Source: Rufibacter sp. XAAS-G3-1
Lineage (GTDB): Bacteria > Bacteroidota > Bacteroidia > Cytophagales > Hymenobacteraceae
Assembly (NCBI RefSeq): GCF_013623775.1
Contig: NZ_JABFAM010000016.1
Location: 1-64,000, forward strand
Direction of reading: 5' to 3'
DNA length: 64,000 nucleotides
Position numbers and translations under genes: made by a program. The notes beneath the pieces are model-generated. The model had not been told where the DNA came from and ran no database searches. It was given only the letters and a program-made list of their open reading frames with translations. Shown here piece after piece: positions 22,515-54,048 of the stretch; positions within the stretch are counted from its first letter, which is position 1; every line of letters starts with the position of its first letter.

Positions 22515-22528
22515 TGCAACCGATTGCA
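22515..22528. promoter_or_regulatory. Candidate LacI-family operator upstream of CE15
   Basis: TGCAACCGATTGCA matches the LacI-family pattern TGNAANCGNTTNCA at all ten fixed positions. It shares the core CAACCGATT with the susC site read in reverse. A possible minus-strand -7 element (TAAGTTTA, one mismatch to TAnnTTTG) lies about 30 bp further towards the gene. Confidence 0.6.
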
Positions 22529-22592
22529 AAAAAAAACATCATAAATTAAGGGTTTTCCAAAAAGAAGTGGCCTGTAGTTCAGATAACACTAT

Positions 22593-22606
22593 TGAAACCG
22601 ATATCA
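22593..22606. promoter_or_regulatory. Second candidate LacI-family operator upstream of CE15
   Basis: TGAAACCGATATCA matches nine of ten fixed positions of TGNAANCGNTTNCA. Its centre lies 78 bp from that of the first site, so looping between two operators is possible. Confidence 0.45.
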
Positions 22607-23668
22607 ATAATCTTTAGAGAGTATGAGAGAAGGTGATGGCAGAGTTGTACGTAATGACAAATCTGTCTCTATTTAGTAATAGGAGTAGAATCCACGCAGC
22701 CTTATAGAAAGGAGTTGAGAAAGCAAATTGAGCAGTGATTAACTGGTGTTCCGCCATTGTGCTGGTGGTTCCCGGCAAGTCTGGAGACTCGCTTCATCCC
22801 GTGGCACGAGACTGGAATCTCGCGCCAGTACTTTCTGCCTGCCTGCTTCCGTGATGCCGTCTGCTCCATAAGACCTCGTAGTGTGCGTAGCTCCTACGAG
22901 CGCCTTCACCCAACCGTTTAAGGCTAGTTTTTCTAAAAACAGCCTTAAAACCTGTGAGGGTCTCCAAGACCTCACAGGTTTAGAACCATTCTGGCCCATT
23001 TTCCTGAAACCAGTCCCAAAACGCTGGGCGAAGGGAGGCTTTCTGCACCCGCAGAAAACCAGCCGTAGAAAGCAATGCGTGCAGGGGACAAGTTGGTGCC
23101 TGATCTCTACCGAAATCTAATAACGCCGGATTCCACGTTTTGAGCCTATTTTCCGTAAAACAGCCCCCAAACCCATCGGCGGTGCTCCCCACTTTGGGGG
23201 TGAGCCCTCTTGTTGCGGAAAACCAGTGTATCCTACCGCACGTGTAGCGCTAGCATAAATGTGGTTGACATGAAACGGCACACGTATCATTCTTATAGGA
23301 GAATGGGAGGAAAGAAAGTCCTTTGCCCCACGTGTACGCTTGTGCCTGAATCCTTGTACCTGAGCTTCATGAAACAGAAAGCTGTTTCTGGCCTGTTTTC
23401 TTAAAAGTAGCCTAAAAACGATGGCATAAGGCCACGCTTGCGCCGGAACCGAAGACGGCGATAGGTCACTATGCATAATTCCTTTTACCAGAAGTACACG
23501 TGGCGGCCTTTCTTTTTCTTACCTGAGGTTCTGGAACGCCGTTAGCATCACTTACACCTGAAAGCTGTGGCAAGCCCCTTTTTCTGCCTTATTTTATGGG
23601 TGGTGAAATACCCCTGGCAGCTTAGTCATAAAAGGTCGTATACTGCATGATATTTCCGGATAAGACAA

Positions 23669-25438
23669 ATGGAGAAGGATCTTTCTAACGCTGTTTCACC
23701 CTCGCACGCGCCTAAGTTAAAAGAACTGTCGGCCACCGCTATCTGCGGGAACGATATCACTTCCTCGTGCCTCTACGTTTCGGCGCTGGCCATTATCTAC
23801 GCGGGGCAGTACGCGTGGGTGGCGCTTCTGATGGTGGGTGGGGTGCTGTACCTGTTCCGGAGCATCTATGGGGAGGTGGTGGGCGCCTTGCCGTTGAACG
23901 GAGGGGCTTACAATGCGTTGCTCAACACCACCAGCAAGAGCACGGCCTCATTGGCGGCCTGCCTTACGCTGCTATCCTACATGGCTACGGCGGTTATTTC
24001 GGCCAGCGAGGCCATGCATTACGTGCACCATTTGTGGGAAGGGTTGCCCATTATTTATGCTACCATTGGACTGCTGGCGCTTTTCATGGGCTTGACCATT
24101 ATGGGTATTGGGGAATCATCCATTGTGGCGGTCATCATTTTTATCACCCATATTTTCACGCTCACGCTTTTGGTGGTGGTGGGAGCCATTTTCCTGTTCA
24201 ACAATGGGGTTGACACGCTGTCCCTCAATTACAGCCAGCCCTTGCAGGGAAGTATTTGGAAAGCCTTGTTTTTCGGCTTTGCCGCCGCCATGCTGGGTAT
24301 CTCGGGCTTTGAGAGTTCGGCAAATTTTGTGGAAGAACAGGCACCGGGTGTTTTCCCCAAGACCTTGCGCAACATGTGGCTGGCCGTGACCATCTTTAAC
24401 CCGCTTACGGCTTTTCTGGCCATCGCCATTCTTCCTATGGCCCAGGTGGCCGAAAACCAGACGGCTTTGCTGGCCTTTCTGGGAGAGGTAACGGGCGGGA
24501 AGTGGCTGGCGGTGTTGGTCTCTGTGAATGCCGCCATGGTGTTGAGTGGCGCGGTGCTCACTTCCTATGTGGGCGTTACCGGATTGGTGCACCGCATGAC
24601 CCTTGATCGCTGTTTGCCCCAGTTTTTGTTGATCACAAACAAAAGGGGCTCCGCCTTTCTGATCATGATCAGTTTCTTTCTGCTGTGCGTTTCCATCCTG
24701 TTAATCACGAAGGGCGACATTGCGGCCTTGGCGGGCGTGTACACTATCTCTTTTCTGAGTGTGATGGCCTTGTTTGGGGTAGGGAATATTCTGCTGAAAA
24801 TGCGTCGTAACCGGCTGCCCCGCCCGGTGCGGGCCTCCGGGATGGTGCTGTTTGTGGCCATCTCCGCCGTTTTAGCGGCCCTGGTAGGCAATGCAATCTT
24901 GAACCCTCCCTACGTATGGGTTTTCCTGAAGTATTTCATCCCCACGGTATCAGTTGTGTTCATTATGCTGTTCCGGATCAGGCTGCTTCGTTTCTTCACT
25001 TACTTGTTGCAGCAGATTGAGCAGCCCCTGGAAAAGATACTCCCCATTACGTCTTATACCATGAAGCGCCTGATCAGCACCATCAAGTCTCAGGAGTTCG
25101 TCTTCTTTACCCGGGGAGACAACATCGCGAACATCAACCAGGTCATGCGCTACATTGTGGAGAATGAGCATACCAGCCGGCTTAAGATTGTGAATGTTCT
25201 TGGGGAAGGGGAGGAGCCCCCTAAAAAGCTGATGCACGAGGTGGAAGTCCTGGATCGCGCCTATCCGGAACTGGTGGTGGATTTCGTCATTATCAGAGGG
25301 AGGCACTTTGGGCCGGAACTTATTCAGGAGCTCTCGTCTAAGTGGAAAATACCTAAAAATTTCATGTTCATCGGCTCGCCGGGAGACCGCTTTCCGTATG
25401 GCTTGCAAGAATTGGGCGGTGTGCGGCTGGTTATCTGA
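23669..25438 (+). CDS. APC-superfamily permease with C-terminal soluble domain
   Basis: 589 residues. About twelve hydrophobic segments span residues 30-440, beginning with the APC-type KELSATAICGNDITSS and a conserved LPLNGGAYNALLN loop, as in amino acid/polyamine transporters. A cytoplasmic tail of about 140 residues follows (IKSQEFVFFTRGDNIANINQVMRY to RFPYGLQELGGVRLVI), with no strong resemblance known to me. The substrate cannot be read from sequence. Monocistronic; the upstream gap is long and repeat-rich. Confidence 0.87.
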   Translation: MEKDLSNAVSPSHAPKLKELSATAICGNDITSSCLYVSALAIIYAGQYAWVALLMVGGVLYLFRSIYGEVVGALPLNGGAYNALLNTTSKSTASLAACLTLLSYMATAVISASEAMHYVHHLWEGLPIIYATIGLLALFMGLTIMGIGESSIVAVIIFITHIFTLTLLVVVGAIFLFNNGVDTLSLNYSQPLQGSIWKALFFGFAAAMLGISGFESSANFVEEQAPGVFPKTLRNMWLAVTIFNPLTAFLAIAILPMAQVAENQTALLAFLGEVTGGKWLAVLVSVNAAMVLSGAVLTSYVGVTGLVHRMTLDRCLPQFLLITNKRGSAFLIMISFFLLCVSILLITKGDIAALAGVYTISFLSVMALFGVGNILLKMRRNRLPRPVRASGMVLFVAISAVLAALVGNAILNPPYVWVFLKYFIPTVSVVFIMLFRIRLLRFFTYLLQQIEQPLEKILPITSYTMKRLISTIKSQEFVFFTRGDNIANINQVMRYIVENEHTSRLKIVNVLGEGEEPPKKLMHEVEVLDRAYPELVVDFVIIRGRHFGPELIQELSSKWKIPKNFMFIGSPGDRFPYGLQELGGVRLVI

Positions 25439-25733
25439 TTAGTCTTCGGCCTTGCCGCCTTTTGCAGATGTCAGCAGAGTAGGGGTTGTTGTGTTTCAGG
25501 AAGGCATCTGCTTTGGAAAACCCATCTGCCTGGATTTGTCCGGGATGTGCTGTGTTATCCCAGCTAAATATTTTGGCTTAGGATATTCTTAAATTATCCT
25601 GTCTGAGGTATTCATGTATTGAGGCATTGGCCTGTATAGTTCAAATCAACAGAAGGGTTTGTGCTGATTTTGCAGAAAGTAAGAGAATACCCAGTAATTG
25701 GCCGAATCTTTGCCTAGCAATACCTGAACTAAG

Positions 25734-25940
25734 ATGGGTATGAGAAACACAGGGCGCACCACAGACCAAACTCCAAAAGAAAATTCTATAACTGCCTCAG
25801 GGAGCCATGCCGCTCAGTACACGGTTGTCAGGCATGGGTTTATGTTAGACAAGAGGTTTGCCAGCTTTTATGAGGCCTACATGTATGGCTTAAACAAATT
25901 CTGCTCGCAGGATTTTCTGGTGCAGAAACTTGAGCCTTAG
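25734..25940 (+). CDS. Possible 68-residue hypothetical protein
   Basis: A short frame from ATG 25734 (alternative ATG 25740). The N-terminal half is polar and low in complexity; the C-terminal half (FMLDKRFASFYEAYMYGLNKF) looks protein-like and amphipathic. Not recognised, no neighbours in an operon, so it could be chance. Confidence 0.35.
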   Translation: MGMRNTGRTTDQTPKENSITASGSHAAQYTVVRHGFMLDKRFASFYEAYMYGLNKFCSQDFLVQKLEP

Positions 25941-26480
25941 GGTATACCTATGGAATGGTTACAATTAGCAGGAGTGTGTAAATAGTGAGGGCTGGTTCTG
26001 AGATCAAATGCCGGAGGAAGAATCTCTACTTGTAGTAACGTTAACTAATACTCTTAATGGTTCCTTTTTTGTCTCTGCTTTTATGTGGAAATAGATGCAC
26101 GGAATCTGCTGTTCCCTTGGCTTGTCTGTTTTTTGCGTGGGTGCAAGTGCTGTATTGTTTCATCTGTTCCGCTAAGCGCTCACGGCCGCGGGGCCCCGTC
26201 TTCCCCTCTCGCACTGCCCTTTCGGCCTGGGAAGTCCTTTGCTCTTAGCTGAGGTCTGTCCAGGGCCAAAAGCGAGGCGCGCTCGGGGAAGACTGGAACT
26301 GGGGAATGTAAAGGCGTTAGTAACAGGAGCAAAGGCAGGAGCGGTTATTGGTTACATTGCCCCTATTCCCCTGCAAAAGCGCATTCCTCTCCTCGGAGGG
26401 GTAGGGGTGGGTTTCGCTCTCCACCATCTCCCTCCAAGTCGCACCAATCATGCATAATGGTACAAGGTAGTAACATTAAA
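25941..26480. other. Intergenic repeat region left of IS relic
   Basis: No supported gene. It contains the reverse copy of the roughly 180-bp repeat (26100-26290) and a CCTCTCCTCGGAGGGGTAGG-type hairpin at about 26388-26415, related to 47866-47905 and, reversed, 59236-59275. Confidence 0.55.
26100..26290 (-). repeat. Roughly 180-bp intergenic repeat, copy 2 (reversed)
   Basis: It is the reverse-complement counterpart of 11566-11735. The 28-bp core is identical (26192-26219), and the outer blocks GTTCCCTTGGCTTGTC and GCGAGGCGCGCTCG are conserved. Confidence 0.65.
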
Positions 26481-26481
26481 T

Positions 26482-27465
26482 AACGTGAGTTTGATGCAAG
26501 AATAACAACAAACAAGGCTTTGCGAGTAAAAGGAGGGGGAAGCCAACCTTTAACAAGCAAAGCCATGAAGAATCATAGAATTTTTTTGCCAAGTACACGA
26601 TTTCTGGAAAGAGTTCCGAGGGGAATGGGAGAAGAACTTACTTAAAGGAAAGCAGCGCAGGAGACCTTGCGGTCTGTGCATGAGCGAGGTGATGGCCATT
26701 GCTGTCCTGTTCCATCTCTCTGGCTACCGCACCTTCAAGGACTACTACCAGGGGCTAGTGCTCAGAGACTACCGCGCTTTCTTCCCGCACCTGGTCTCCT
26801 ACGGCAGTTTCACAGAGCTCATGCAGGACTGCGCAGTCCCGCTGGCCCTGTTCATGCACAGGAGCAGACTGGCGCAAAGAGGGGGAGTAGCCTTCATACG
26901 ACTCCACCTCTTTATCCGTCTGTCAGAACCCGCGCATCCACCAGCACCGGGTGTTTGCCGGCTCCGCCAAAAGAGGCAAGGCTTCCACCGGCTGGTTCCT
27001 GGGCCATAAGCTGCACGTGGTCATCAACCACCTAGGGGAGATCGTCTCCTTCTGTATAACCCCGGGCAACACCGATGACCGAAAGCCAGTGGAGCAACTC
27101 ACCCAGGGTATGTGGGGCAAGCTATCCGCCGACATGGGCTACATCAGCCGGAGCTTGAAGGAAAAGCTGAAAGCGAAAGGAGTAGAGTTCATCACCAGGC
27201 TAAGGAGCAACATGAAAAGGCAGGCCCTTGCCCAGTTCGAGCAGCTCATGCCCAGGAAACGGCCACTGATTGAGTCGGTCAATGGGCTTCCTCAAGAACT
27301 ACCTTCCAGATACAGCATACCCGCCACAGAAGCAGGCATAATTGGCTGGTAAACGTGCTCTCTGGTCTGATTGCCTACTCTTTCCTACCGCAAAAGCCCA
27401 GCCTCAAATTCTTTCAGAATAAAACTGAACTACTTACACTTTAGTCTTAGCTCGAACTTACGTTG
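26482..27465 (+). mobile_element. IS982-family insertion sequence relic
   Basis: About 984 bp, the normal size for IS982 elements. The ends form imperfect inverted repeats: AACGTGAGTTTGAtgcAAGA at the left (26482-26501) against the complement of TCTTAGCTCGAACTTACGTT at the right (27444-27463). The transposase inside is broken. No clear target-site duplication was found. Confidence 0.7.
26565..27443 (+). pseudogene. IS982-family transposase, frameshifted
   Basis: Joined over frames, the product has family motifs: CQVHDFWKEF, MSEVMAIAVLFHLSGYRTFKDYY, FPHLVSY, then DSTSLSVCQN..HRVFAGSAKRGKASTGWF (DDE region), [28 protein letters not shown], and [19 protein letters not shown]. At least three frameshifts break it: in a T7 run near 26583, near 26899 and near 27285. 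It cannot make an active transposase. Confidence 0.85.
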
Positions 27466-27540
27466 ATTAAGGCCCTCAGATTGAAAGGTAGATTGCGGTA
27501 GACAATGTAACGCCACGGGACAACAGCAACCTTGTGAGTT

Positions 27541-27575
27541 AAAAAAAGCCCCTCAGAATGAACTGAGGGGCTTTG
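27541..27575. terminator. Terminator hairpin beside tRNA 3'-end fragment
   Basis: AAAAAGCCCCTCAG/CTGAGGGGCTTT arms around a 6-nt loop. Read on the minus strand it directly follows a tRNA 3'-end-like sequence at 27578-27610, as the terminator at 32643-32679 follows the intact tRNA-Glu. Confidence 0.7.
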
Positions 27576-27577
27576 TA

Positions 27578-27610
27578 GTAGTCCGTAGGAGTAAATTATC
27601 GAACCTTATC
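27578..27610 (-). repeat. tRNA-Glu 3'-end fragment (candidate att site)
   Basis: GTAGTCCGTAGG (27578-27589) is identical to the 3' end of the tRNA-Glu gene (32682-32693). ATCGAACC then follows in both, here after a 7-bp insertion. It is a partial duplicate of the tRNA 3' end, 5.1 kb away in direct orientation. Confidence 0.5.
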
Positions 27611-27799
27611 CCCAATGATTTAATAGCTTTATATAACTACCTGCAATAGGTGAATATAAGAAGTACTTAAGTACATGTAGTTTGCAGTATAGATAATGAG
27701 CCAGTCCGAGGAGATAGATGAGGCTTTTATATTGATTAGTAAAACTTTAAGTCATTTAAAAACTGACTTAAATGGGAGTTCATTATATTGTCCTTCATA

Positions 27800-27884
27800 A
27801 ATGCACCGGGTGCTTAACACTTAGTTAGGCTGAGATGATACCCGGAACCTGATTTGGATAATGCCAGCGTAGGAATGCAGTATG
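27800..27884 (+). promoter_or_regulatory. TPP riboswitch (THI element)
   Basis: It has the conserved core of the thiamin pyrophosphate riboswitch: CACCGGGTGC, then AGGCTGAGATGATACCC, ACCTGATTTGGATAATGCC and AGCGTAGGAA, closing on a short P1 stem (ATGCA/TGCAG). On the plus strand, the first coding remnant downstream is a frameshifted methyltransferase starting about 75 bp later. Confidence 0.92.
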
Positions 27885-27959
27885 CAAAATTGTCCATTTG
27901 TACTCAATTCCATTGGCTTATGCCAGGTGAGTGGAGTTTTGTTTTAAATAAACATAAAA

Positions 27960-28430
27960 TGGATATAGAAAAAGCAGCTTTCGGATTAATCCCCAAAGCC
28001 AGCGGAACTGGCAAAACAGACCCGAATGGTTCTTTAACCGCGAGAATAACGACACCTACGAACTCTGGTATGAAGGCAGGTACAGGCGGGCAGAGGTCTG
28101 GCAGAAGAAGATAATGGAACAGCTCGTCTCCAAAGACGGGCGAATCAAAACGTTGCTTGAGTTTGGCTGCGGCACTGCCCGTTTCACCGGGTGGTGGAAA
28201 GAGATCGGGATCGAGGCTACCGGAGGGGATCTCTCGCCCCTGTTGCTTTCTCAAGCTATCCATCTGTTTGAGGGGAACCTGGTATTGGCAGACTCCCACC
28301 ACATGCCTTTTAAAGACCATATCTTCGACGCGCTTGCCTTTATAACTACGTTTGAATATCACAAAGACCCTGTAAAATTAATCCGGGAGGTGACCGGGCA
28401 AGTTCTAACCCCATTTCGTGCAGGTGCACC
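27960..28430 (+). pseudogene. Frameshifted and truncated SAM methyltransferase
   Basis: The reading starts MDIEKAAFGLIPKASGTGKTD (27960). After a 1-base frameshift near 28020 it continues EWFFNRENNDTYELWYEG..RRAEVWQKKIMEQ, then LEFGCGTARFTGWW (SAM-binding motif I), GGDLSPLLLSQA and FDALAFITTFEYHKDPVKLIREV. That is the first two thirds of a class I methyltransferase (type 11). It ends abruptly at a junction with an unrelated regulator fragment near 28420. The riboswitch upstream suggests a former thiamin-regulated gene. Confidence 0.7.
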
Positions 28431-28610
28431 CGCGCTGCTTTGAGGAGATGCAGGCAAGGTACCCCAACCTCATCCGGAACGAGCTGTGCCTGTATAGCTA
28501 CTGCCACAGCAACCTCTCTAACAAAGAAACCGGGGCCCTGCTCAACATAGAGCCTGCCAGCTTGCGGCGGGCCGAGACGAGGCCCCATAAAAAACTTCCC
28601 AGGACAAGGG
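28422..28610 (+). pseudogene. C-terminal HTH fragment of a LuxR-type regulator
   Basis: The peptide HPRCFEEMQARYPNLIRNEL, then LSNKETGALLNIEPASLRRAETR, matches the C-terminal HTH of Bacteroidota TPR/sensor regulators (usual form LSNKEIAALLNIEPASVRRAK). Only this end remains; the frame continues into unrelated sequence to 28675. It is joined directly to the methyltransferase fragment. Confidence 0.65.
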
Positions 28611-28675
28611 CGAAAGTATGCCTGATAGCGGCGCACCAAAGGCCGATTTTTCATCTATTTCAAAAAAATCATTAG

Positions 28676-28994
28676 TAATTCTCTTCCGGGCTCTGTTTCT
28701 TCTACCCGCTTTCTTAACCTCTAGAGGGTAAGTCCTTAAAGTCTGTTTTAATTCAACCAGTTGATTTTCAAAATCTTGAAAATGCTGTAAATGTTTTGCC
28801 TATTGCTATGTTTTAGGATATAACTGCTTTATTATTTAAATTAAGTTTTTTGAATATTTATAATCCGGGTATAACTTTATATTTATGGCAGACTAGCCAC
28901 AGATAAGCAGGAATAGTAAAGAAGTCCTTGAAACCCTGGGGCAGAACTTTTCTTGGGTAGCAACTACCACACTTAATTCTATTTTTATATTGAA
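28676..28994. other. Intergenic region with promoter for fibre gene
   Basis: AT-rich, no gene. It contains the promoter listed at 28850-28879. Confidence 0.5.
28850..28879 (+). promoter_or_regulatory. Bacteroidota-type promoter
   Basis: TTG at 28850-28852, a 19-bp spacer, then TAACTTTA at 28872-28879, one mismatch from the -7 consensus TAnnTTTG. It lies 115 bp upstream of the fibre gene start. Confidence 0.5.
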
Positions 28995-30446
28995 ATGAAG
29001 AGACGCCCTAATTCCATTGTCCCCGGTAAAATCAGAGCCCTGTTTAGTATGCTACTGGTAATTTTTTCCCTGGGGTACGGCTCCGCAGCGTTAGGCCAAT
29101 CTACCGGTGTGCGCATAGGCACTAGTCCCGCTGCCCCGCCAGACCCCAGCGCCATGCTAGACATTGCCGCTACTGATAAAGGCCTGCTCATTCCGCGCCT
29201 TACGGAAGTGCAGCGCCAAGCCATTGCCAGCCCGGCTACCGGCCTGATGGTTTTCCAGACCGACGGTTCTTCGGTGGGCTTCTGGTACTATGTTAGCCCG
29301 GGCGGCTGGACGGCTCTGAGCCCCGGCGGTGATAATTTAGGCAACCACAAGGCTACTCAAAACCTGAACCTCTCTGATAAAGTGCTGGTGGGGCAAACAA
29401 CGTCTGCTGCCGCTGTAAGCGCCAGCGGCTTAAGGGTAGACTCTGACGGCAAGGTGAGCATAGGCCCTAAACGGAATGCCACAGTTTACGCGGGGTTAGA
29501 AGAACATACTGGCGCCGGTATTCTTTCTACCGGAACATTTAAGTCGGATAGTGATTTTAATACCATATCAGGTGCTGGCACCAGATTGCTCTGGTCGCCG
29601 GAAAGGGCCGCTTTCAGGGTGGGCCAGGTAAGCGGTGGCCAGTGGGATGGCGCAAACGTGGGCCGTAATTCGGTAGGGATGGGCTCTGACGTCGTGGCTT
29701 CGGGCAGTAATGCCATTGCCTTGGGTAACGGAACAAGAGCTACCGGTGAAAATTCGTTTGCATCAGGCCATAACGCTATAGCCTCCGGTAATTATTCGTT
29801 TGCATCAGGCAACTCCGTAACAGCTTCCGGGCACTATAGTACTGCCATAGGTTCAATGGTATCTACAGATAATAGGCAAGGCGGAGTAATTATGGGCGAC
29901 AACGGCTCTTATGGAATGATTACTAAACCAACTGCCAATAACCAGATGATAATGCGCTTTACTGGTGGTTATATACTATACTCCACTGCAAATGCTACTT
30001 CTGGCGTAGAGGTGGCTGCGGGGGGCGGTTCCTGGAGCTCTGTTTCAGACAGCACCCGCAAAGAGAACTTCCGCCCCATAGACGCTGAGCAGGTACTGCT
30101 TAAAGTGGCAGCCCTGCCCGTCACCGAGTGGAACTACAAGTCTCAGACCCCAAATGAACGCCACATAGGCCCCATGGCTCAGGATTTTTACTCCGCCTTC
30201 CGTCTTGACGGCATCGGCCGCGACACCACCATTAACACCATCGATATTGATGGAGTGAACATGGTCGCCATCCAGGCACTGGAGAAAAGAACAAGGGAGC
30301 TGCAAAAGCAGCTAGAGCTGCTACTTCTTCAGAATGCCGCGCTGCAAGCCAACGCCCAGAAAACCGATGCCGCCTTGCAACACCTGCAGGAGCAGGTGGC
30401 CAAACTCTCAGGTGAAGTGCCTGTCAGTCCCCAAGCCCAGAAATAG
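28995..30446 (+). CDS. Secreted trimeric fibre-like protein with S74 chaperone domain
   Basis: 483 residues. A signal peptide ends ALGQS at about 36. Residues 40-140 resemble the N-terminal part of Bacteroidota tail-fibre-like surface proteins (DPSAMLDIAATDKGLLIPRLT). Residues 228-295 are YadA/Hep_Hag head repeats (SNAIALGNGTRATGENSFASG, GNYSFASGNSVTASG). A peptidase S74/endosialidase chaperone domain covers about 352-440 (SDSTRKENF, GPMAQDFYSAF), and a coiled coil ends the protein. S74 domains promote trimer folding and often cleave themselves off. The role is probably adhesion, inferred. It sits 30 bp upstream of a sorting-domain protein. Confidence 0.82.
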   Translation: MKRRPNSIVPGKIRALFSMLLVIFSLGYGSAALGQSTGVRIGTSPAAPPDPSAMLDIAATDKGLLIPRLTEVQRQAIASPATGLMVFQTDGSSVGFWYYVSPGGWTALSPGGDNLGNHKATQNLNLSDKVLVGQTTSAAAVSASGLRVDSDGKVSIGPKRNATVYAGLEEHTGAGILSTGTFKSDSDFNTISGAGTRLLWSPERAAFRVGQVSGGQWDGANVGRNSVGMGSDVVASGSNAIALGNGTRATGENSFASGHNAIASGNYSFASGNSVTASGHYSTAIGSMVSTDNRQGGVIMGDNGSYGMITKPTANNQMIMRFTGGYILYSTANATSGVEVAAGGGSWSSVSDSTRKENFRPIDAEQVLLKVAALPVTEWNYKSQTPNERHIGPMAQDFYSAFRLDGIGRDTTINTIDIDGVNMVAIQALEKRTRELQKQLELLLLQNAALQANAQKTDAALQHLQEQVAKLSGEVPVSPQAQK

Positions 30447-30476
30447 TTTATAGAAAAGCAATCAGGCGAATAGCTT

Positions 30477-31955: not shown

Positions 31956-31969
31956 AAATTGCCTTTTAA

Positions 31970-32413
31970 AAGAGCCAAGACCATCACGGTGCGGGACTCT
32001 GCGGGCACCACTTTCTTTACCACTGAGGTGCAATTGAAATCTTCCAGCAACAGGTATTGACTGGTGCGCAGGGCGTCAGAGGAATGGGTGAGAAACGCTA
32101 GCCGTTCACTCCGCTCCATCAACTGTATAAACTGATGGAAATTGGAGAGGTCTTCGTCAGTGGGTTGGTCCAGGTAGTATCCCTTCTGCCTTGGGCAAAA
32201 GGTAATATTAACGCCATAACAATTAAATATGTCTTTCTTATCACGCTCAAATGTTCGATAAGAAATGGGTTCCAACATTTCTTCCTCTAATCGATGCCGT
32301 AACTTCTCTTTGGTAGGGTACCGAAAGGGCGGTTGAACCAGGCGTAGGATGGCTAGGTGTCGCCTGATTATAGCAAGATGGTTCATTGATTCAATTTTGG
32401 ATACCTTATTCAT
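31970..32413 (-). pseudogene. Truncated WYL-type transcriptional regulator
   Basis: The frame (start 32413) encodes an HTH-bearing N-terminus: NHLAIIRRHLAILRLVQ, PTKEKLRHRLEEE, SYRTFERDKKDIFNCYGV, then SNFHQFIQLMERSERLAF, typical of the region before a WYL domain. Similarity ends near residue 130, and the open frame then runs into the convergent sorting-domain gene until a stop at 31928. The ligand-sensing WYL domain is missing. It may still be translated as a 161-residue protein. Confidence 0.65.
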
Positions 32414-43771: not shown

Positions 43772-43787
43772 TGGGTTCTTCTAGTCC

Positions 43788-43822: not shown

Positions 43823-43828
43823 CGATGC

Positions 43829-45466: not shown

Positions 45467-45631
45467 TCGTTTGGATTTTGTAGAAAGATAACCCTTCCGG
45501 GTTAAAAATGAAATGCTTCTTTGCAGGCTTTTTTGAGAAAACAGCCCTAAAACAGACCATTGATTTCCGCTGGTGAGGGTAAATTATTCCAACAGAACCG
45601 ATAGATTTACCCCGGTAACCAGAAAACACGC

Positions 45632-46768: not shown

Positions 46769-47600
46769 ACTGTACGCCTACCTGCACGAGGAAATACTGC
46801 CCCTAGAAAGCGCCTACCTGCACGTAAGCGACCTCTCCATCCAGCGCGGCTACGGCATTTTCGACTTTTTTAAAACGCACAATGGGCAGCCGCTGTTCCT
46901 GGAAGATTACCTGAACCGGTTCTACGCCTCGGCCTCGCTCATGGGGCTGGAAGTACCTCTTCCGGAAGACGAATTAGTCTCCACCATCACCCGGTTGATT
47001 CAGATGAACGGCCTCGCAGATTCAGGCATGAAAATGATTTTGACCGGCGGCTATTCTGAGAACGGCTACAATCCTGGCCCGCCCAACCTGATCATGATAG
47101 AGCAGCCGCTTACCTTGCCCTCTGAGGTGCAAGTCACAACGGGTATTAAGGTGATCACCCATGAGTATGTGCGGGAATTGGCGGCGGCCAAAACCATCAA
47201 CTACACCGTGGGCGTCCGGTTGATTCAGCAAGTGAAAGCCAAAGGAGCCGAAGATGTGCTGTATCACCAAAATGGCGTAGTTTCAGAGTTTCCGCGTAGC
47301 AACTTCTTTCTGGTGAAGGAGGACAACACCATTATCACTCCGGTACATGAAATCCTGAAAGGCATCACCCGGAAAAACGTACTGGAGCTAGCCGGTAAAA
47401 AGTACCGGGTGGAGGAAGAAACCGTAACGTTGGAAGACATAGCCCAAGCCAAGGAAGCCTTCATGACCAGCACCACCAAACGAATCCTGCCCATTGTGGC
47501 CGTAGACGGAAACCCCGTAGGCAATGGCAAGCCCGGGGCAGTCACTCTGCAACTGCTGAAAGATTTAGTTGCTCTGGAAGGGCGGCAAGTGAGTCTGTAA
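46752..47600 (+). CDS. Class IV PLP aminotransferase
   Basis: 282 residues, fold type IV. Signature parts: DLSIQRGYGIFDFF near the start, the PLP lysine in AAAKTINYTVG (about 141), SEFPRSNFFLV (glutamate near 178) and FMTSTTKRILPI. It resembles branched-chain/D-amino acid aminotransferases; the exact substrate is open. The start codon lies inside the end of the P1 peptidase gene (17-bp overlap), so translation is probably coupled. Not clearly ilvE, as it sits away from branched-chain biosynthesis genes. Confidence 0.9.
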   Translation: MSLNHKLYAYLHEEILPLESAYLHVSDLSIQRGYGIFDFFKTHNGQPLFLEDYLNRFYASASLMGLEVPLPEDELVSTITRLIQMNGLADSGMKMILTGGYSENGYNPGPPNLIMIEQPLTLPSEVQVTTGIKVITHEYVRELAAAKTINYTVGVRLIQQVKAKGAEDVLYHQNGVVSEFPRSNFFLVKEDNTIITPVHEILKGITRKNVLELAGKKYRVEEETVTLEDIAQAKEAFMTSTTKRILPIVAVDGNPVGNGKPGAVTLQLLKDLVALEGRQVSL

Positions 47601-47995
47601 AAAGAGAAGGGCAATCTCTGGTGGTTGCCTTTGTAGTGACAGCATGGTTTCTAGGGTTGCCGGGAAACGCCAACGGTTGGGCATTCCTATGAAAGCCCAA
47701 CCGTTGTAGCATTGGTTTCTGTTACGACCCTACGTGATACTGCCGGTGGTACCCGGCGAGACTGAAGTCTCGCGCCAGTAGGCTTTAAACCTGTGAGGTC
47801 TTGGGCATCTCACAGGTTTTCGCGTTTACAGCCTGTTTTCCGTAAAACAGCCCTAAAACGTATCGGCAGGGCTCCCCTCTCCGTGGGAGAGGGGCTGGGG
47901 GTGAGGTTTCTTTCCCGTTTTGGGTCTGTTTTCCTGAAAACAGCCCTAAAACGAGGGGGTAAAGAATCTATGCCAGCAATGAACTGCCGTGCGCC
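47601..47995. other. Repeat-filled intergenic region
   Basis: No gene. It holds a 12-bp perfect hairpin CAACGGTTGGGC/GCCCAACCGTTG (47671-47706), a CGAGACTGAAGTCTCGCGCCA repeat (about 47758-47778), a CCTGTGAGG/CTCACAGG hairpin (47788-47818), intergenic hairpins at about 47825-47860 and 47919-47953, and a CTCCCCTCTCC/GGAGAGGGG hairpin at about 47868-47892 between them. The last hairpin may terminate the GH10 transcript. Confidence 0.6.
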
Positions 47996-49123
47996 TTACT
48001 TCTTTTTAACTGCGTTCACAATGGCATGGAAGGCAGGCTTGGGTTGGTAGTTACGGTCAAAGATCATGGGGTAGCTGGTGCGGCCTTGGATGGGCCAGTT
48101 GTTCAACCAGGAATCCGCATCGGTGACGCCCCAGAAAGTGACGCGGGTGATCTTGTCTCGGTGCTTGTGGAACAGGGCGAAGAGTTCCGCGTAGCGTTTG
48201 GCCAGTTTCTGTTCTACCTCTTCCGGCAGGCCTTTGGTGTAGACGTTGTATTTCTGGTCAAACTCAAACGTAGCGTCAATGTCGGCACCCTGGCGGTTGC
48301 TGGGGTTGGGCAGCACGTCAATGTCCACCTCGGTGAACATCACCTTGCCTACTTTGGAGAACTTGATGATGCTTTCCTCAATCTGCTGGATGGTGGGGTT
48401 TTCCAAGCCATAATGCCCTTGCATGCCTATTCCGTACACTTTCAGGCCTTTGGCTTGCAGGCTTTTCACCAGCTTGAGGGCCCCGTCGGCTTTGGCGGGC
48501 TTCCATAGGTTGTAGTCATTGTAGTACAGCTCCGCTTTGGGGTCTGCCTTGCGGGCGGTTTCAAAGGCGTTGGCCAGGTATTCCTCGCCGGTGATCTGGT
48601 ACCATTTGCTGTTGCGCAGGGTGCCGTCATCGTTCAGGGCCTCGTTCACCACGTCCCAGCCGTGGATCTGCCCTTTGTACCTTCCTGCCACTGCCATGAT
48701 GTGCTCGGTCTGCCGTTTCAGAAGCTGCTCTTTGGTGGCGGGTTTGCCGGGTGCAGACTCAAACACCCAATTTGGGGTTTGCTGATGCCAGGTCAAGGTA
48801 TGACCCACAATGAACTGCTTGTGCTTTTTACCCAGCGCCACGAAATCATCGGCGGGTTTGAAGTTGTATTTGTCTGGTTGCGGGTGCACGTTCCCCCACT
48901 TCAGCAGGTTCTCTGGGGTGATGGTGCTGAAGTGCTTCGCGATGATGGCCTCCGCTTTGGGGTCTTTGCCACTGGCTTGCGGGTAGTTCAGGGCCGCTCC
49001 AATGTGGAAATCGTCCTTGAAGATTTGCTTCAAAGACGGCTCTCCCTGGTTGACCGTGCCGGCCACGCAACCCAAGGCTGCAAAGGCAATGCCGGCCGCA
49101 AACATGATTCTGTTCTTTCTCAT
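47996..49123 (-). CDS. GH10 endo-beta-1,4-xylanase lipoprotein
   Basis: 375 residues. Lipobox LGC at Cys19. GH10 catalytic residues: acid/base E161 in WDVVNEAL and nucleophile E265 in FTEVDID; substrate-site motifs HTLTWHQQTP and TFWGVTDADSWL. Single domain, typical length. As a lipoprotein it should cut xylan or xylo-oligosaccharides at the cell surface or in the periplasm. It is last in the leftward lacI-GH67-SDR-GH10 order; 178 bp and a 58-bp palindrome separate it from the SDR gene, so its expression may be modulated. Confidence 0.96.
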   Translation of the reverse strand: MRKNRIMFAAGIAFAALGCVAGTVNQGEPSLKQIFKDDFHIGAALNYPQASGKDPKAEAIIAKHFSTITPENLLKWGNVHPQPDKYNFKPADDFVALGKKHKQFIVGHTLTWHQQTPNWVFESAPGKPATKEQLLKRQTEHIMAVAGRYKGQIHGWDVVNEALNDDGTLRNSKWYQITGEEYLANAFETARKADPKAELYYNDYNLWKPAKADGALKLVKSLQAKGLKVYGIGMQGHYGLENPTIQQIEESIIKFSKVGKVMFTEVDIDVLPNPSNRQGADIDATFEFDQKYNVYTKGLPEEVEQKLAKRYAELFALFHKHRDKITRVTFWGVTDADSWLNNWPIQGRTSYPMIFDRNYQPKPAFHAIVNAVKKK

Positions 49124-49223
49124 GGACTTGATCTATTTGATGGGCTTATTGTATCTTGTGGTAGTCAAAACTAACGTTGGTATTGCAGAACGGCCCACGT
49201 CTGGAATCTTATTCGGTGGAAGG

Positions 49224-49281
49224 TTGCCTTTTCTGTTTCAGGTTTGTTTCTGGAAAAACAGGCCTGAAACAGAAAAGGCAA
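49224..49281. repeat. 58-bp palindrome between SDR and GH10 genes
   Basis: The arms TTGCCTTTTCTGTTTCAGG and the complement CCTGAAACAGAAAAGGCAA surround a GTTTGTTTC/AAAACAGG core of the intergenic hairpin family. On the minus strand it sits between two co-directional genes. Confidence 0.8.
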
Positions 49282-49301
49282 TCTGACTTGTAGAAGGTGT
49301 T

Positions 49302-50060
49302 TTAAAACCCGATGGAGTTTCCGCCGTCCACGGGCAACACGGTACCGGTCACGTATTTGGAACTGTCTGAGGCGAAGAAATACACCGCTTCGGCCACATC
49401 GGCCGGAGAGCCGAAGGCACCCATTGGGGTACGGCCCATGGCTTTGTTTTTGCGTTCCGGGTCGCTGTCCATGGCTTTGGCCGACATGGCCGTGGCGATA
49501 AAACCAGGAGCCACGCAGTTGGTTCTAATGCCCATGGGCGAAAGCTCGGTGGCCATGGCGCGGGTCATGCCTTCAATGGCAGATTTAGACGCCGTGTAGG
49601 AAATCACCTTTGGAATGCCGTACTGGGAGGCCATGGAGCTGATGTTCACAATAGAGCCTTCGCCGTGCGGCAGCATCGTTTTCACCACCTCACGGCTCAA
49701 CGCGAAAACTGCGGTTACGTTGGTCGTGTTGATGCGCTGGAACTCTTCATCGGTTACTTCCACGAAAGGCTTCTTCTGGTTGATGCCCGCGTTGTTGACC
49801 AGAATATCCAGCTTGCCGTGTTCCTGCGCCAGGCGTTCCACCAGGGCCGGAATGCCTTCCAGGTTGCTCAAGTCAAAAGACTCCGTGAGGCAAAGCTCCC
49901 CGAATTGGTCTTTCACGTCTTTCAGTTTCTGCGCATCGCGGCCAATAACAATGGTTTTGATGTTCTGCTGGATAAATTTCTCTACAATGGCCAGGCCTAT
50001 TCCTGAGGCGCCGCCGGTGACAATGGCGGTTTTGTTTGCGGGTGTGGTGTGTGGGGTCAT
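49302..50060 (-). CDS. SDR-family oxidoreductase, probable fructuronate reductase role
   Basis: 252 residues, classical SDR. Cofactor motif TGGASGIG (15-22), NNAG (89-92), catalytic S142, Y155 and K159 (YTASK), and a C-terminal VDGGNSIGF. It resembles KduD/gluconate 5-dehydrogenase-like enzymes. It lies 18 bp after the GH67 gene in the same operon. The pathway encoded here needs an enzyme between UxaC and UxuA, and no UxuB-type mannitol dehydrogenase homologue is seen, so reduction of D-fructuronate to D-mannonate is the best guess. Other sugar-acid substrates are possible. Confidence 0.85.
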   Translation of the reverse strand: MTPHTTPANKTAIVTGGASGIGLAIVEKFIQQNIKTIVIGRDAQKLKDVKDQFGELCLTESFDLSNLEGIPALVERLAQEHGKLDILVNNAGINQKKPFVEVTDEEFQRINTTNVTAVFALSREVVKTMLPHGEGSIVNISSMASQYGIPKVISYTASKSAIEGMTRAMATELSPMGIRTNCVAPGFIATAMSAKAMDSDPERKNKAMGRTPMGAFGSPADVAEAVYFFASDSSKYVTGTVLPVDGGNSIGF

Positions 50061-50078
50061 AAATTCTTTCCTTCAATA

Positions 50079-52244
50079 TTAAATCCCCGGGGCGAATTTG
50101 GGGTCTATCTTCATATACTCTTCCAAGGTGCCCTGAGGTTGCTCCAGTCCTTGCGGAATAGGCCGCTTGGAGAACGTTTGGAAATACAGCAGACAGGCAT
50201 CGCGCCACCAACGGGCGTCTTTCTCCTGGATGGCCAGGTACTGTTTCACCTGCTGGTGTCTTTCCTTGTCCACTTGTCCTGCCAGGGCATTCCAGGTTTT
50301 CTGCATGGTTCTCACGGAATCTACGCCGCCGGAGTAGCGGTAGCAAAGTTCATCCCACAGGGTTCTGCCGGACTTTGTTTTCGCGTCCCAGGCCACGTGG
50401 TGGAACCAGAGCAGGACATCCTCTGGGCAGGTAGCGGGGTTTTCCCATTGGGCCTGCACCTCTGGGGCGTACTGTGACAGGGCATTGCTGCCCGTTTTGG
50501 TGCGGTCGAACCCGATGCCTTTCTCATCGGCGCGGTGGTAGTACACCGAAGTCCAGTCGGCGCGGGGTTTGTCTTTGATCCAGGGGGCCGGGCCGTAATG
50601 GTGATCCCAGCCCATGAGGTGGTGCAAGCCCATAGGGGTCATGTAGTTCACCACGGTCTCACGGGAAGCCATCATCATGTTCCGGATGGGGGTCACCAAC
50701 GAAGGCGAACCGGAAAAGGTCATTTTAATCCACTCGTCGGCAATGTCTTCTGCCGTTAAGGCGTGATCCCAGGCCAACCGGCCGAAGGCGTACCAGTTCG
50801 CTTGCCCAAACGGGTGGCTCGTCCAGTTGATGTCGTTCCCTATGTTCGCCACGCCGGCCATGCCCGAGATAGCGTGGTTGTCCAGGCTGCCGTCTACTAC
50901 CTTGGCCACGGTAGAGCCCTGGCCTTTGGCGTACGTGTCTGATTCCAAGGTTTCTTTGAACATGGGAGCCAGATAGGCCAGGTGGGTGCCTTGTCCCAGG
51001 TATTCCTGCGTGATCTGAAACTCCATCATGAGCGGCGTTTTAGGCATCGCCCCGAAAAGCGGGTGAAATGGTTCGCGCGGTTGGAAGTCAATGGCGCCGT
51101 TCTTTACCTGCACTATCACATTTCCCTGGAAGGTGCCGTCCAGCGGCTTGAACTCAGTGTACGCCTGTTTGTGACGGTCATCGGGCACGTTGTTATCATA
51201 CACAAACGCGCGCCACATCACAACGCCGCCTTTGGGGGCAAGCGCCTCGGCCAGCAGGTTCGCGCCATCGGCGTGGGAGCGGTTGTAGTTCTGCGGGCCC
51301 GGCTGGCCCTCAGAGTTGGCCTTCACCGTAAAGCCCCCGAAATCAGGAACGTAGGTGTAGATCTCATTCACTTTGTTTTTCCACCAGGCTTTCACCTCGG
51401 GGTTCAAGGGATCAGCGGTTTTCAGTTTGCCTATTTCAATGGGCGAGCTGAAACGGGCCGTCAAATACACCTTGATGCCATACGGCCGGAACACATCGGC
51501 GAGCGCCTTTACTTTCTTTAGGTATTCCGGCGTTAGCACCAGTGAATTGGCGTTCACGTTGGTGAGCACCGTGCCGTTGATCCCGACGGAGGCGTTGGCG
51601 CGGGCGTAGTCAATGTAGCGCTGGTCAATGTAATCGGGGAGTTTGTGCCAGTCCCAGATGGAGAAACCGGCGTAGCCGCGCTCTACCGTACGGTCTAGGT
51701 TGTCCCAGTGGTTTAAGATGCGCAGTTTGGTTTTGGGGCTGTTGCTCACGTTCAGGTTTTGGATGTCCTGCTGGGTTTGCAGCAAGCGCAGCAAGTGAAA
51801 TGTGCCGTACAGAACGCCTTTCTCAGAGTTGGCGGCAATGACGGTATAGGCGTTTCCCTTGTGTTTTTGCGAAAGCAGCAGAAAACCTTCCTGGCCCACT
51901 TCTTTGAGTTTCTGATCCAGTCCCAGGTCTTTGATGAGGGAAGAAGTAGCGGGGGTGCCTGCCACCAGTCCTCCTTTTTTAGAGGCGTTGTCCGTGATGG
52001 TCACTTTGGAGCCCAGCAATCCGCTTAAGGCCATATCCAGTTCATCTTTCACCACCGCGAGGGTAGGAGAAGAGCCTTGCACGGTTACGTTGCCCAGGGT
52101 CTTCCGGTATTGTTTCAGGAGGTCTTTGTTCTGGATCAGGTCATAGCGTTGCCACAGGCGGTAGCCATCCTCGGCCTGGGCCGGTTTCTGGCCGAAGATT
52201 AGAACGACAAGGAAGGCGAAACAGAAAACTATTTTTTTGCTCAT
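50079..52244 (-). CDS. GH67 alpha-glucuronidase
   Basis: 721 residues, full length. A signal peptide ends AQAE at about 25. Family GH67 features: an N-terminal beta-sandwich-like domain, then the barrel with GFTVKANSEGQPGPQNYNRS (general acid Glu), VVMWRAFVYD, and IDFQPREPFHPLFG (acidic residues), and the C-terminal domain WDHHYGPAPWIKDKPRADWT. GH67 removes (4-O-methyl)glucuronate from the non-reducing end of xylo-oligosaccharides, so it acts after GH10. It is exported, probably to the periplasm. First structural gene after lacI. Confidence 0.96.
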   Translation of the reverse strand: MSKKIVFCFAFLVVLIFGQKPAQAEDGYRLWQRYDLIQNKDLLKQYRKTLGNVTVQGSSPTLAVVKDELDMALSGLLGSKVTITDNASKKGGLVAGTPATSSLIKDLGLDQKLKEVGQEGFLLLSQKHKGNAYTVIAANSEKGVLYGTFHLLRLLQTQQDIQNLNVSNSPKTKLRILNHWDNLDRTVERGYAGFSIWDWHKLPDYIDQRYIDYARANASVGINGTVLTNVNANSLVLTPEYLKKVKALADVFRPYGIKVYLTARFSSPIEIGKLKTADPLNPEVKAWWKNKVNEIYTYVPDFGGFTVKANSEGQPGPQNYNRSHADGANLLAEALAPKGGVVMWRAFVYDNNVPDDRHKQAYTEFKPLDGTFQGNVIVQVKNGAIDFQPREPFHPLFGAMPKTPLMMEFQITQEYLGQGTHLAYLAPMFKETLESDTYAKGQGSTVAKVVDGSLDNHAISGMAGVANIGNDINWTSHPFGQANWYAFGRLAWDHALTAEDIADEWIKMTFSGSPSLVTPIRNMMMASRETVVNYMTPMGLHHLMGWDHHYGPAPWIKDKPRADWTSVYYHRADEKGIGFDRTKTGSNALSQYAPEVQAQWENPATCPEDVLLWFHHVAWDAKTKSGRTLWDELCYRYSGGVDSVRTMQKTWNALAGQVDKERHQQVKQYLAIQEKDARWWRDACLLYFQTFSKRPIPQGLEQPQGTLEEYMKIDPKFAPGI

Positions 52245-52278
52245 GGTACTTGGCGAATTATGTAGCGAAGGAAGATCA

Positions 52279-52314
52279 GTTTTAGGCCTGATTTCAAGAA
52301 AACAGGCCTAAAAC
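52279..52314 (-). repeat. Hairpin between lacI and GH67 genes
   Basis: Near-perfect GTTTTAGGCCTG/CAGGCCTAAAAC arms of the window-wide hairpin family, 17 bp after the lacI stop on the minus strand. It may act as a partial terminator that lowers or separates expression of the two genes. Confidence 0.75.
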
Positions 52315-52330
52315 CATGAAAGCAGATGAC

Positions 52331-53383
52331 TTAGATAAGCACTACTCTTTGTTTGGGGCTTACTTTACTTTTTAGCGAAGAATCCCGGATGATTAATTCT
52401 GACCTCAGGGTGATGGTGTTGCTGGGAGCCCTTTCTTCTGTTCCGTTCATTTGCAGCAGCAAAACCCTCACCGCCATTTCGCCCATTTCCTGGCCGGGAT
52501 AGTTGATGGTGGTAAGGTTAGGTTCTATCACTCTGGAGATGGTGTCATTGTTGAAGCCTACCACGGCCATGTCTTTGGGCACCGAGATGCCGGCTTGTTT
52601 CAAGGTCTTGATACAACTAACCGCGCAGGTGTCATTAGAGACAAAAATGCCATCTGGTAAGGTCTTCATGTCCAGGATCTGTTTGGCGGCTTGCTCACCG
52701 GCTTCTTCGCTGAGGTTGTTGATGAGCACGTTGGCATCATCATAGGCAAGGTCATGGTCAACCAGGGCGTATTTATAGCCTTTCAATCTATCTGTGTAGA
52801 CGTTCCTTTTCAGATTACCGGTAATATGGACAATGTTCCGGCAGCCTTGCTCAATCAAATGGGAAGTGGCCTTGTACGCTGCCTGCAGGTTGTCAATCAC
52901 AATGCTGGTGCAATCCCGGTGTTCGGCCACCCGGTCATAGAAGATAACCGGAATGCCCCGGTTTATGAAGTTCTCGAAATGCTCAATTTGGTCGGTTTCA
53001 TAGGACAGGGAAACCAACAAGCCGTCTACCCGGCTGTCAAACATGGTTTTGGCGTTGGCCATCTCCTTTTGGAGCGTCTCCAAAGATTGGCTGATGATGA
53101 GGTTATACCCGGCTTCATTCGCCATCTTTTCCATCCCCGAAATCACCGAAGACATAAAGGGGCTGTTCAAGCGGGGCACAATGACCCCTATGGTATTGGT
53201 GCGCTGTTTTCTCAGGTTGCTGGCAAACAGGTTGGAACGGTACCCCATCTGGGCGGCGGCATCAGCGATTCTCTGCTTGGTGTTCTTGTTGACGGCCGGA
53301 TGGTCATTGAGTGCCCTGCTAATGGTAGTAGGAGACAGATCCAGTTCGCGCGCTATGTCATATATAGTAATGTCCTTCTCCAT
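52331..53383 (-). CDS. LacI-family transcriptional regulator
   Basis: 350 residues from ATG 53383 (MEKDITIYDIAREL). The upstream ATG at 53398 is not preferred because the promoter -7 element at 53406-53413 would put the transcript start almost on it. HTH: ITIYDIARELDLSPTTISRALN; hinge about 50-60; periplasmic-binding-protein-like effector domain after (IGVIVPRLNSPF, GIPVIFYDRV, AVVGFNNDTISR). It lies between the two arms of the xylan locus and should respond to a xylan- or uronate-derived sugar. Candidate operators: 53414-53427, 53682-53695, 22515-22528 and 22593-22606. Confidence 0.93.
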   Translation of the reverse strand: MEKDITIYDIARELDLSPTTISRALNDHPAVNKNTKQRIADAAAQMGYRSNLFASNLRKQRTNTIGVIVPRLNSPFMSSVISGMEKMANEAGYNLIISQSLETLQKEMANAKTMFDSRVDGLLVSLSYETDQIEHFENFINRGIPVIFYDRVAEHRDCTSIVIDNLQAAYKATSHLIEQGCRNIVHITGNLKRNVYTDRLKGYKYALVDHDLAYDDANVLINNLSEEAGEQAAKQILDMKTLPDGIFVSNDTCAVSCIKTLKQAGISVPKDMAVVGFNNDTISRVIEPNLTTINYPGQEMGEMAVRVLLLQMNGTEERAPSNTITLRSELIIRDSSLKSKVSPKQRVVLI

Positions 53384-53405
53384 CCTGATTATAGTCATTC
53401 AGAAA

Positions 53406-53427
53406 CAAATATATGAAATCGATTTCA
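53406..53427 (-). promoter_or_regulatory. lacI promoter with overlapping LacI-type operator
   Basis: On the minus strand, a perfect -7 element TATATTTG (53406-53413) is directly preceded by the palindrome TGAAATCGATTTCA (53414-53427), which fits TGNAANCGNTTNCA at all ten fixed positions. The placement implies autorepression. No good -33 TTG was found. Confidence 0.65.
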
Positions 53428-54048
53428 TTAAATGAAATTACAATTTCCGTAATATACTCAAACAACGCCATTGGTAAAACCATAAGTTTCAGGGCGTAGT
53501 GGGTGCCTTGGTTCTTTATTTAATTGAAAAGGAACTTAAATAAGTTAAATATAGGTTTGTGGCATCAGCGGGGAATCCTTTGAAATCTAAATGGCAGGCA
53601 GGTTTCTGCTGAAAACCGCCTGCCATTTAGATTCTTCCAAAAATGTAGCGGATGGCCGGGTGTTTCTTTTGGAAAAATTTATGAAATCGGTTGTAATATT
53701 TGAAATTTATATTCAAGTTTGTAGAGTCAGAAGGAGGTGCGTCTCCTATTGCTCCTTCTGGAGAGGGTAAAAGGAGGGTGTGATTGGGTTTTCTGGCTGT
53801 TTTAGTAGAATTGCCTTGAAAGCAACCCATGTTGAGGCTGGATGAAATCCTCCAGAAGTTAACCTGTACGGCCATGGAGGCAGAATTTACCAAAATGATA
53901 AAAAGCGGTAGTTTTTAGTTGCCAGCCTAGGGTTGCTCAGGAACTGCAAGGCAAGGCAGAAAGCAGGCTTATCAGGAATCACAAACCATACTATATATCT
54001 TCTCCATTCTTACCCTTATTAGCACAATTAACCTAAACAACTGTATGT
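53428..54048. other. Regulatory region between lacI and susC
   Basis: No supported gene. It contains the susC promoter/operator and a leader of about 320 bp with a degenerate intergenic hairpin at about 53788-53822. A TATAGGTTTG sequence at 53550-53559 is a further possible promoter but lacks a well-spaced TTG. Confidence 0.5.
53682..53721 (+). promoter_or_regulatory. susC promoter with LacI-type operator
   Basis: TTG at 53691-53693, a 20-bp spacer and CAAGTTTG at 53714-53721 (one mismatch to TAnnTTTG) form a Bacteroidota-type promoter. TGAAATCGGTTGTA at 53682-53695 fits nine of ten fixed LacI-operator positions and covers the -33 element. Confidence 0.55.

Follow-up and report, generated by a model that had tools for sequence, protein, structure and literature searches.

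Predicted operators tie a distant CE15 esterase gene to the glucuronoxylan LacI regulator of Rufibacter

Results and Discussion

The first 64,000 nucleotides of contig NZ_JABFAM010000016.1 of Rufibacter sp. XAAS-G3-1 (the window) contain a glucuronoxylan locus with a gene for a LacI-family regulator (52331 to 53398) and, about 30 kb away, a stand-alone gene for a glucuronoyl-esterase-type protein of family CE15. We hold it probable, at roughly 0.85, that this LacI protein acts as the local repressor of a glucuronoxylan regulon whose genes are dispersed and include CE15. Because the same kind of site stands before both genes and is kept in relatives, the regulator very probably also controls CE15. 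The comparative support comes from the sites and how well they are kept, from the contrast with the operators found for LacI paralogs and from the distance to promoter-like boxes; binding, repression and operon structure are what we infer from it.

Operator-like sites in the window

An earlier note on this DNA had described four palindromes, two upstream of the CE15 gene and two on the lacI and susC promoters, and had proposed that one LacI regulator co-controls a split locus. A motif scan recovered all four, TGCAACCGATTGCA at 22515 and TGAAATCGATTTCA at 53414 with no mismatch to the motif of that note, and TGAAACCGATATCA at 22593 and TGAAATCGGTTGTA at 53682 with one mismatch each. The gene map confirmed that the first pair lies upstream of CE15, about 30 kb from the lacI and susC sites, and Pfam assignments bore out the gene setting, with 53414 and 53682 before lacI and susC. 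The sites and the genes next to them are as follows.

19559..22063, minus strand: CE15 glucuronoyl-esterase-type gene, 834 amino acids, with an HYR-like region and a type IX secretion system (T9SS) sorting tail (PF22244, E = 4.5e-72; PF18962, E = 6.1e-13)
22515..22528, minus strand: predicted proximal CE15 operator, TGCAATCGGTTGCA in CE15 sense (exact motif, 23.4 bits)
22593..22606, minus strand: predicted distal CE15 operator, TGATATCGGTTTCA in CE15 sense (15.9 bits; counterpart of the relatives' distal site)
52331..53398, minus strand: LacI-family regulator, start probably at 53383 (PF00356, E = 1.3e-11; PF13377, E = 1.1e-33)
53414..53427, minus strand: predicted lacI operator, directly followed by TATATTTG (exact motif)
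53682..53695, plus strand: predicted susC operator, its TTG 20 bp from CAAGTTTG

The motif of the earlier note is loose. Allowing two mismatches, it has 43 matches in the window against 32.7 expected; allowing one, it occurs at 202 places of the 5.30-Mb genome, and the reversed pattern at 182. Such matches alone therefore prove little, so that the case for shared control rests on conservation, and the consensus was dropped as a genome-wide test. Exact matches number eight in the genome, three of them inside the window; another, found on a different contig, is flanked by GH43 and GH2 genes, and those at C47:338555, C47:413562 and C69:31693, which were checked for nearby reading frames only, are not of the AAYCGRTT type. 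The window also has an exact match that the earlier note did not list, at 21223 within CE15 coding sequence, and matches with one mismatch at 14987 and 55473, likewise unlisted there.

A scoring matrix was built from 56 sites in the 500 bp preceding LacI orthologs of relatives (30 loci), the window excluded; it depends partly on the earlier motif, since its training sites were chosen with a similar degenerate pattern. Its consensus reads TGMAAYCGRTTKCA, and its five best places in the window are 22515 (23.4 bits), 53414 (22.9), 53682 (20.1), 21223 (18.4) and 22593 (15.9), followed by a site of 13.2 bits. In 300 shuffles of the window the score of 22515 was never matched, and that of 22593 was equaled 0.157 times per shuffled 64 kb.

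The third exact match of the window is the following.

21223..21236, minus strand: exact motif match within CE15 coding sequence, probably fortuitous (18.4 bits; on the codons for G-A-T-D-Y)

An operator inside a coding sequence would resemble lac O2; for 21223 such a role is unsupported, as the match falls on conserved codons and none of the six relatives whose codons were compared has it.

Conservation of the lacI and susC operators

A LacI ortholog occurs in 13 of the 16 genomes of the genus group, namely the window's, 11 full-length proteins (79-87% identity) and one split over two contigs (G011). Both operators are kept at all 13 genus loci containing the upstream side; L028, the locus that carries just the C-terminal portion of the split G011 gene, has no operator. 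The window protein has the helix-turn-helix and the periplasmic-binding-like core of the LacI/GalR family, CcpA entries are the solved chains that match it best (E = 2.6e-54), and the central-CG palindrome at the own promoter, a trait of that family, is found by sequence at all 13 loci. In the family outside the genus, 23 more genomes have a LacI ortholog. At the 18 loci compared there, a site lies no more than 100 bp from the LacI match in 17 (one with a mismatch) and at least one lies within 1.5 kb upstream in 18, and the 14-mer of window site 22515 recurs upstream of lacI at 9 of the 18, either near the gene or some 270-300 bp away.

On the same strand as lacI and downstream of it lie genes for GH67, SDR and GH10 proteins, and the remaining genes of the locus are on the other strand.

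47996..49123, minus strand: GH10 xylanase (PF00331, E = 7.8e-99)
49302..50060, minus strand: short-chain dehydrogenase/reductase (SDR) oxidoreductase, presumptive uronate-pathway role (PF13561, E = 3.3e-61)
50079..52244, minus strand: GH67 alpha-glucuronidase (PF07488, E = 1.5e-156)
54049..57177, plus strand: SusC-like TonB-dependent transporter (PF07715, PF13715)
57190..59139, plus strand: SusD-like glycan-binding protein (PF07980, PF14322)
59796..61628, plus strand: GH43 protein of beta-xylosidase type (PF04616, PF17851)
61766..62935, plus strand: UxuA mannonate dehydratase (PF03786, E = 1.8e-118)

Conservation of the CE15 sites in the genus

CE15 orthologs are present in four of the 16 genus genomes, the window's and G015 (86%), G005 (78%) and G003 (73%); in three further genomes the similarity to CE15 is confined to C-terminal repeats. 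Two sites stand upstream of CE15 in all four, spaced 77-78 or 150-152 bp (78 bp in the window), so that the proposed pair is kept in each of the three other genomes. The proximal sites read, in CE15 sense, TGCAATCGGTTGCA in the window and TGAAATCGGTTGCA, CGCAATCGGTTGCA and TGAAACCGATTGCA in the relatives, the counterpart being found in G015, G005 (one mismatch) and G003. All four distal sites read TGNTATCGGTTKCA, each with T at position 4, and the off-consensus T is thus itself kept; this corrects the earlier note, as the second site at 22593 is weaker and consistently off-consensus. The neighbors of CE15 vary, an amino-acid permease gene adjoining it in the window, pgk in G015 and G005, and a divergent SASA-type esterase gene in G003. 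When window positions 22000-23700 were compared by BLASTN with the CE15 regions of the three relatives, the leader from the start codon together with the proximal operator was collinear (E = 3e-6 in G015, 5e-10 in G005 and 0.02 in G003).

In G003 (L109, 9052-11010), CE15 is divergent from a gene for a SASA-type carbohydrate esterase, and both operators lie in between.

Instead of looping with the proximal site, the distal site may be a relic of a lost divergent promoter, like that of the SASA-type gene, and we give this reading somewhat less than even odds. In G003 some 60 bp separate the start of the SASA-type gene from the distal site, and a search for a relic of the gene found no trace in the window or in the stretches of G015 and G005 examined. 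Against this, three genomes that have no SASA-type gene beside CE15 still keep the distal site, which argues for a kept role.

Promoter geometry and proposed mechanism

In all 13 susC promoters the TTG of the half-site is followed, after exactly 20 nucleotides, by CAAGTTTG (12 loci) or CATGTTTG (one locus). The same 20 nucleotides separate the half-site from a TANNTT box in three of the four CE15 promoters (G015, G005 and G003), and 20 to 22 do so in 9 of 9 GH43 promoters, one of which has TTT in place of TTG; the GH9 operator sits just after a TATCTTTA box. The TTG and TANNTT boxes resemble the -33/-7 promoter of Bacteroidota, and the varied overlap of operators with these boxes would fit a repressor. 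The window CE15 promoter holds one more feature.

22488..22515, minus strand: 11-bp tandem duplication between the operator and the CE15 -7-like box (period 11, 2.5 copies, 100% match)

In the proposed mechanism, LacI would bind TGMAAYCGRTTKCA palindromes overlapping either the -33 region or the spacer of its target promoters, which would be those of lacI (with GH67, SDR and GH10), susC-susD, an unlinked GH43 gene and CE15 with its two sites 78 bp apart. Looping between the two CE15 sites may contribute. When a xylan-derived sugar enters, presumably a glucurono- or xylo-oligosaccharide or xylose, LacI would release the DNA, and ester cleavage, import and uronate breakdown would rise jointly.

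Comparison with LacI paralogs

LacI paralogs of about 27-40% identity occur in all 16 genus genomes, and 51 loci (one duplicate) of the 79 LacI places listed were compared. Their proteins form five groups and one fragment. Upstream of the window-type LacI stands TGAAACCGATTTCA or a close variant, upstream of group 2 GGAAATCGATTTCC or CGTAATCGATTACG, of group 3, which lies beside xylose genes, TGCCAACGTTGGCA (6 of 8 loci), and of group 4 TGCAAACGTTTGCA (1 of 2 loci).

Since the window genome holds four further paralogs at E<=1e-40, the CE15 sites could be targets of one of these reading a similar palindrome, which would leave LacI control in place under another regulator. The group 2 palindrome GGAAATCGATTTCC has a common core and the window lacI site scores 16.3 with the group 2 matrix, and the loci compared revealed no operator common to group 0. 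We nevertheless regard this reading as unlikely. With the matrix of the window-type LacI, each of the eight CE15 sites gains 2.9 bits or more over any paralog matrix tested, that of group 4 resting on a single site; the asymmetric AACCGATT core of the CE15 sites is common to most lacI and susC operators of the window-type LacI; and outside the genus CE15 sites accompany the window-type LacI.

Beside xylose-type genes (kinase, isomerase, transporter) of three genomes (L112, upstream of 9957 in G000:C4; L106; L117) stands a different, perfect palindrome, TTATGCCAACGTTGGCATAA, which is probably the operator of a LacI paralog.

The nearest described systems are the XylR regulons of Xanthomonas and Caulobacter, in which a LacI-family repressor likewise acts on xylan and xylose genes at several loci through a 14-bp operator with central CG (PMC10380989). 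Their xyl-box is printed as TGGTAGCGCTAACA, unlike the TGMAAYCGRTTKCA of Rufibacter, which does not read as a xyl-box; they belong to another phylum with another promoter type, a comparison drawn from the published description, and the XylR passages of that paper make no mention of CE15. In Bacteroides, UxuR (BT1434), UxaR, KdgR and UxmR are also LacI-family regulators of uronate pathways in Bacteroidota, listed for monosaccharide pathways in the parts of the source consulted (PMC3878776), whereas the Rufibacter LacI, compared by description, sits among GH67, GH10 and SusCD. The xylan polysaccharide utilization loci (PULs) of Gramella flava similarly list lacI with a xylanase, GH67 and SusCD, and the passages on them give no operator or distant member (PMC5306329). 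Most subscription papers being out of reach, we found no paper that ties CE15 or glucuronoyl esterase to a LacI operator, and none on Rufibacter xylan with LacI.

CE15 loci beyond the genus

Among 204 genomes of the family, CE15 (cut-off E<=1e-100) was found in 33 and a LacI ortholog (E<=1e-95) in 36, both together only in the four genus genomes. We scanned 30 of the 33 CE15 loci, which represent 26 of the 29 carriers outside those four genomes. None of the 26 has the exact motif within 1 kb upstream of CE15, and nine have one-mismatch palindromes, several of them of other LacI-like types; one locus at a contig end (L154) has no site in its 829 bp upstream of CE15.

A second, named set comprised 55 CE15 loci (L187-L241), with short upstream stretches at L228 and L231 and species overlapping with the family set; loci L242-L253 (21-63% identity over 24 to 346 query residues) lay outside the scan. 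A site of at least 18 bits within 600 bp was found at 11 of the 55, that is, at two Rufibacter loci and nine others, in Niastella (two), Segetibacter, a Bacteroidales metagenome-assembled genome (MAG), two Prolixibacteraceae MAGs, a MAG labeled Williamsia, Hymenobacter gummosus and a Bacteroidetes MAG. This corresponds to 9 of 53 non-Rufibacter upstream stretches (up to 600 bp each) against 3 sites in 331,151 control positions, and of these three, one is just upstream of CE15 (L212) and one just upstream of a LacI homolog (L204). The LacI search, from which the genomes of L203 and L212 (both site-bearing), L215, L228, L231 and L237 were left out, found a LacI of 50-61% identity in all 7 searched of the 9 site-bearing genomes outside the genus and one of at least 50% in 5 of the 40 searched site-less genomes (Fisher p = 1.3e-5, uncorrected for kinship); with a 47% cut the latter became 7 of 40 (p = 5.5e-5, likewise uncorrected). 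Central-CG palindromes upstream of CE15 numbered 67 against 26.8 expected at 50 loci, a count on which we build little since it mixes several palindrome types and GC-rich genomes.

That the CE15-upstream palindromes are chance or relic sequence without regulatory role is very hard to sustain, common as loose matches are genome-wide and despite the unconserved good match in the CE15 coding sequence, given the site pairs in all four genus genomes with CE15, the score of 22515 unmatched in the shuffles and the excess of strong sites at distant CE15 loci.

Several points weigh against control of CE15 by the window-type LacI. The CE15 start lies 452-543 bp downstream of the sites, and in the window the 11-bp duplication makes the distance from half-site to TANNTT box 31 bp instead of the 20 of the three relatives, about one helical turn more, so that this promoter may behave differently. 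The promoter boxes were sought with a chosen pattern, and their spacing stands without a computed null. The distal site is weak (15.9 bits in the window, 10.6 in G005); its collinear BLASTN matches fall short of significance (E = 3.2 in G015 and 0.26 in G005), no BLASTN match joined it to the G003 distal site, and non-collinear, repeat-like matches of similar E occur in the CE15 upstream region. Orthologous CE15 promoters are also non-independent samples. Outside the genus, the 50% identity cut was set after the first LacI search and kinship is uncorrected, the 5 of 40 site-less genomes carry a window-type LacI all the same, and an 18-bit site upstream of a LacI homolog examined was seen in only 3 of 7 distant site-bearing genomes (G207, G208 and G210); the Niastella homologs have a 13.5-bit variant there, and one distant homolog is cut by a contig end.

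There is about an even chance that one LacI subfamily and TGMAAYCGRTTKCA form a phylum-wide code tying stand-alone CE15 to glucuronoxylan use in Bacteroidota, in which the operator would stay with CE15 as neighbors change and, where the regulator is missing as in Hymenobacter, CE15 would be rewired to other LacI-type palindromes.

Hymenobacter CE15 promoters (L143, L144, L146, L157, L163 and several of L195-L211) are mostly without the window-type operator and often have other LacI-like palindromes, for example CGCAATCGTTTGCA, which suggests a change of regulator. In a Flavisolibacter MAG (L204, 1318-1405), a LacI homolog lies on the CE15 contig, and a TGTAATCGGTTGCA site stands 74 bp before the LacI match.

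The CE15 protein and its place outside a PUL

CE15 enzymes cleave the ester that joins lignin to glucuronoxylan. The best solved chain for the window protein is 8trx_A, a CE15 glucuronoyl esterase (E = 2e-127). The nucleophile motif of the window protein, GCSYAGK (family motif GXSRXGK), is invariant in the seven aligned sequences including the window's; beside the catalytic serine it carries Tyr in place of the Arg found in most CE15 enzymes. According to the parts of the report consulted, the same Tyr occurs in the solved rumen fungal enzyme PrCE15 (8TRX) and in 26 of 35 sequences of anaerobic gut fungi (PMC11345330). Since a solved enzyme shares the Tyr, the window protein is likely to be active on glucuronoyl esters.

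The gene does not cluster with SusC/SusD and GH genes; it lies about 32 kb from susC and adjoins the amino-acid permease gene, and so falls outside a PUL. In Dyadobacter fermentans, too, CE15 genes lie outside the PULs recognized by the PUL database, and the natural role of some such enzymes is described as open (PMC11096219, as far as consulted). Their regulation is also left open there (PMC11096219), whereas in Rufibacter the predicted operator would supply the link. An operator placing a stand-alone CE15 gene in a glucuronoxylan regulon would be direct evidence of the role of CE15.

A second, partial CE15-domain match in the window genome (L083, G000:C14:109801-110301, 121.7 bits) has nothing operator-like that scores above 6.1 bits in the 3.5 kb examined there; thus not all CE15-like genes bear the operator. 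Downstream of the amino-acid permease gene, positions 26660-27360 hold what appear, by eye and with no search made, to be pieces of a broken transposase-like gene.

A proposed dispersed regulon in the genus

Across the 16 genus genomes, the refined pattern TGNWAYCGRTTKYA had 171 strand matches against 113 for the reversed control (sums), so that single-strand matches are mostly background. Palindromes that match on both strands numbered 40 by hand count, and 36 of these strict sites lie by xylan or xylose genes: lacI 13, susC 3, CE15 3, GH43 9, GH9-type 4, GH10 with a T9SS tail 1, GH3 1 and xylose genes 2, the gene families having been assigned by Pfam on one member each and extended by similarity. 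Leaving aside lacI, susC and CE15, which had shaped the pattern, the proportion is 17 of 21. Background evidence is mixed, loose matches being common and strict palindromes mostly lying by xylan or xylose genes. Predicted members of the regulon lie on other contigs, and of the earlier proposal co-control is therefore supported, by conservation, in the form of a dispersed regulon rather than one split locus. This suggests that a xylan locus in Bacteroidota can extend to unlinked genes by a simple LacI switch, and a search for the operator would reveal further regulon members.

The remaining four strict sites lie before a response-regulator gene in two genomes, inside a reading frame (G014) and at one place in G012. 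Before the response-regulator gene, the palindrome directly precedes the GTG (L094, 4001-4014, G000:C73:107463; L113, 4001-4014, G015), and the DNA further upstream has diverged.

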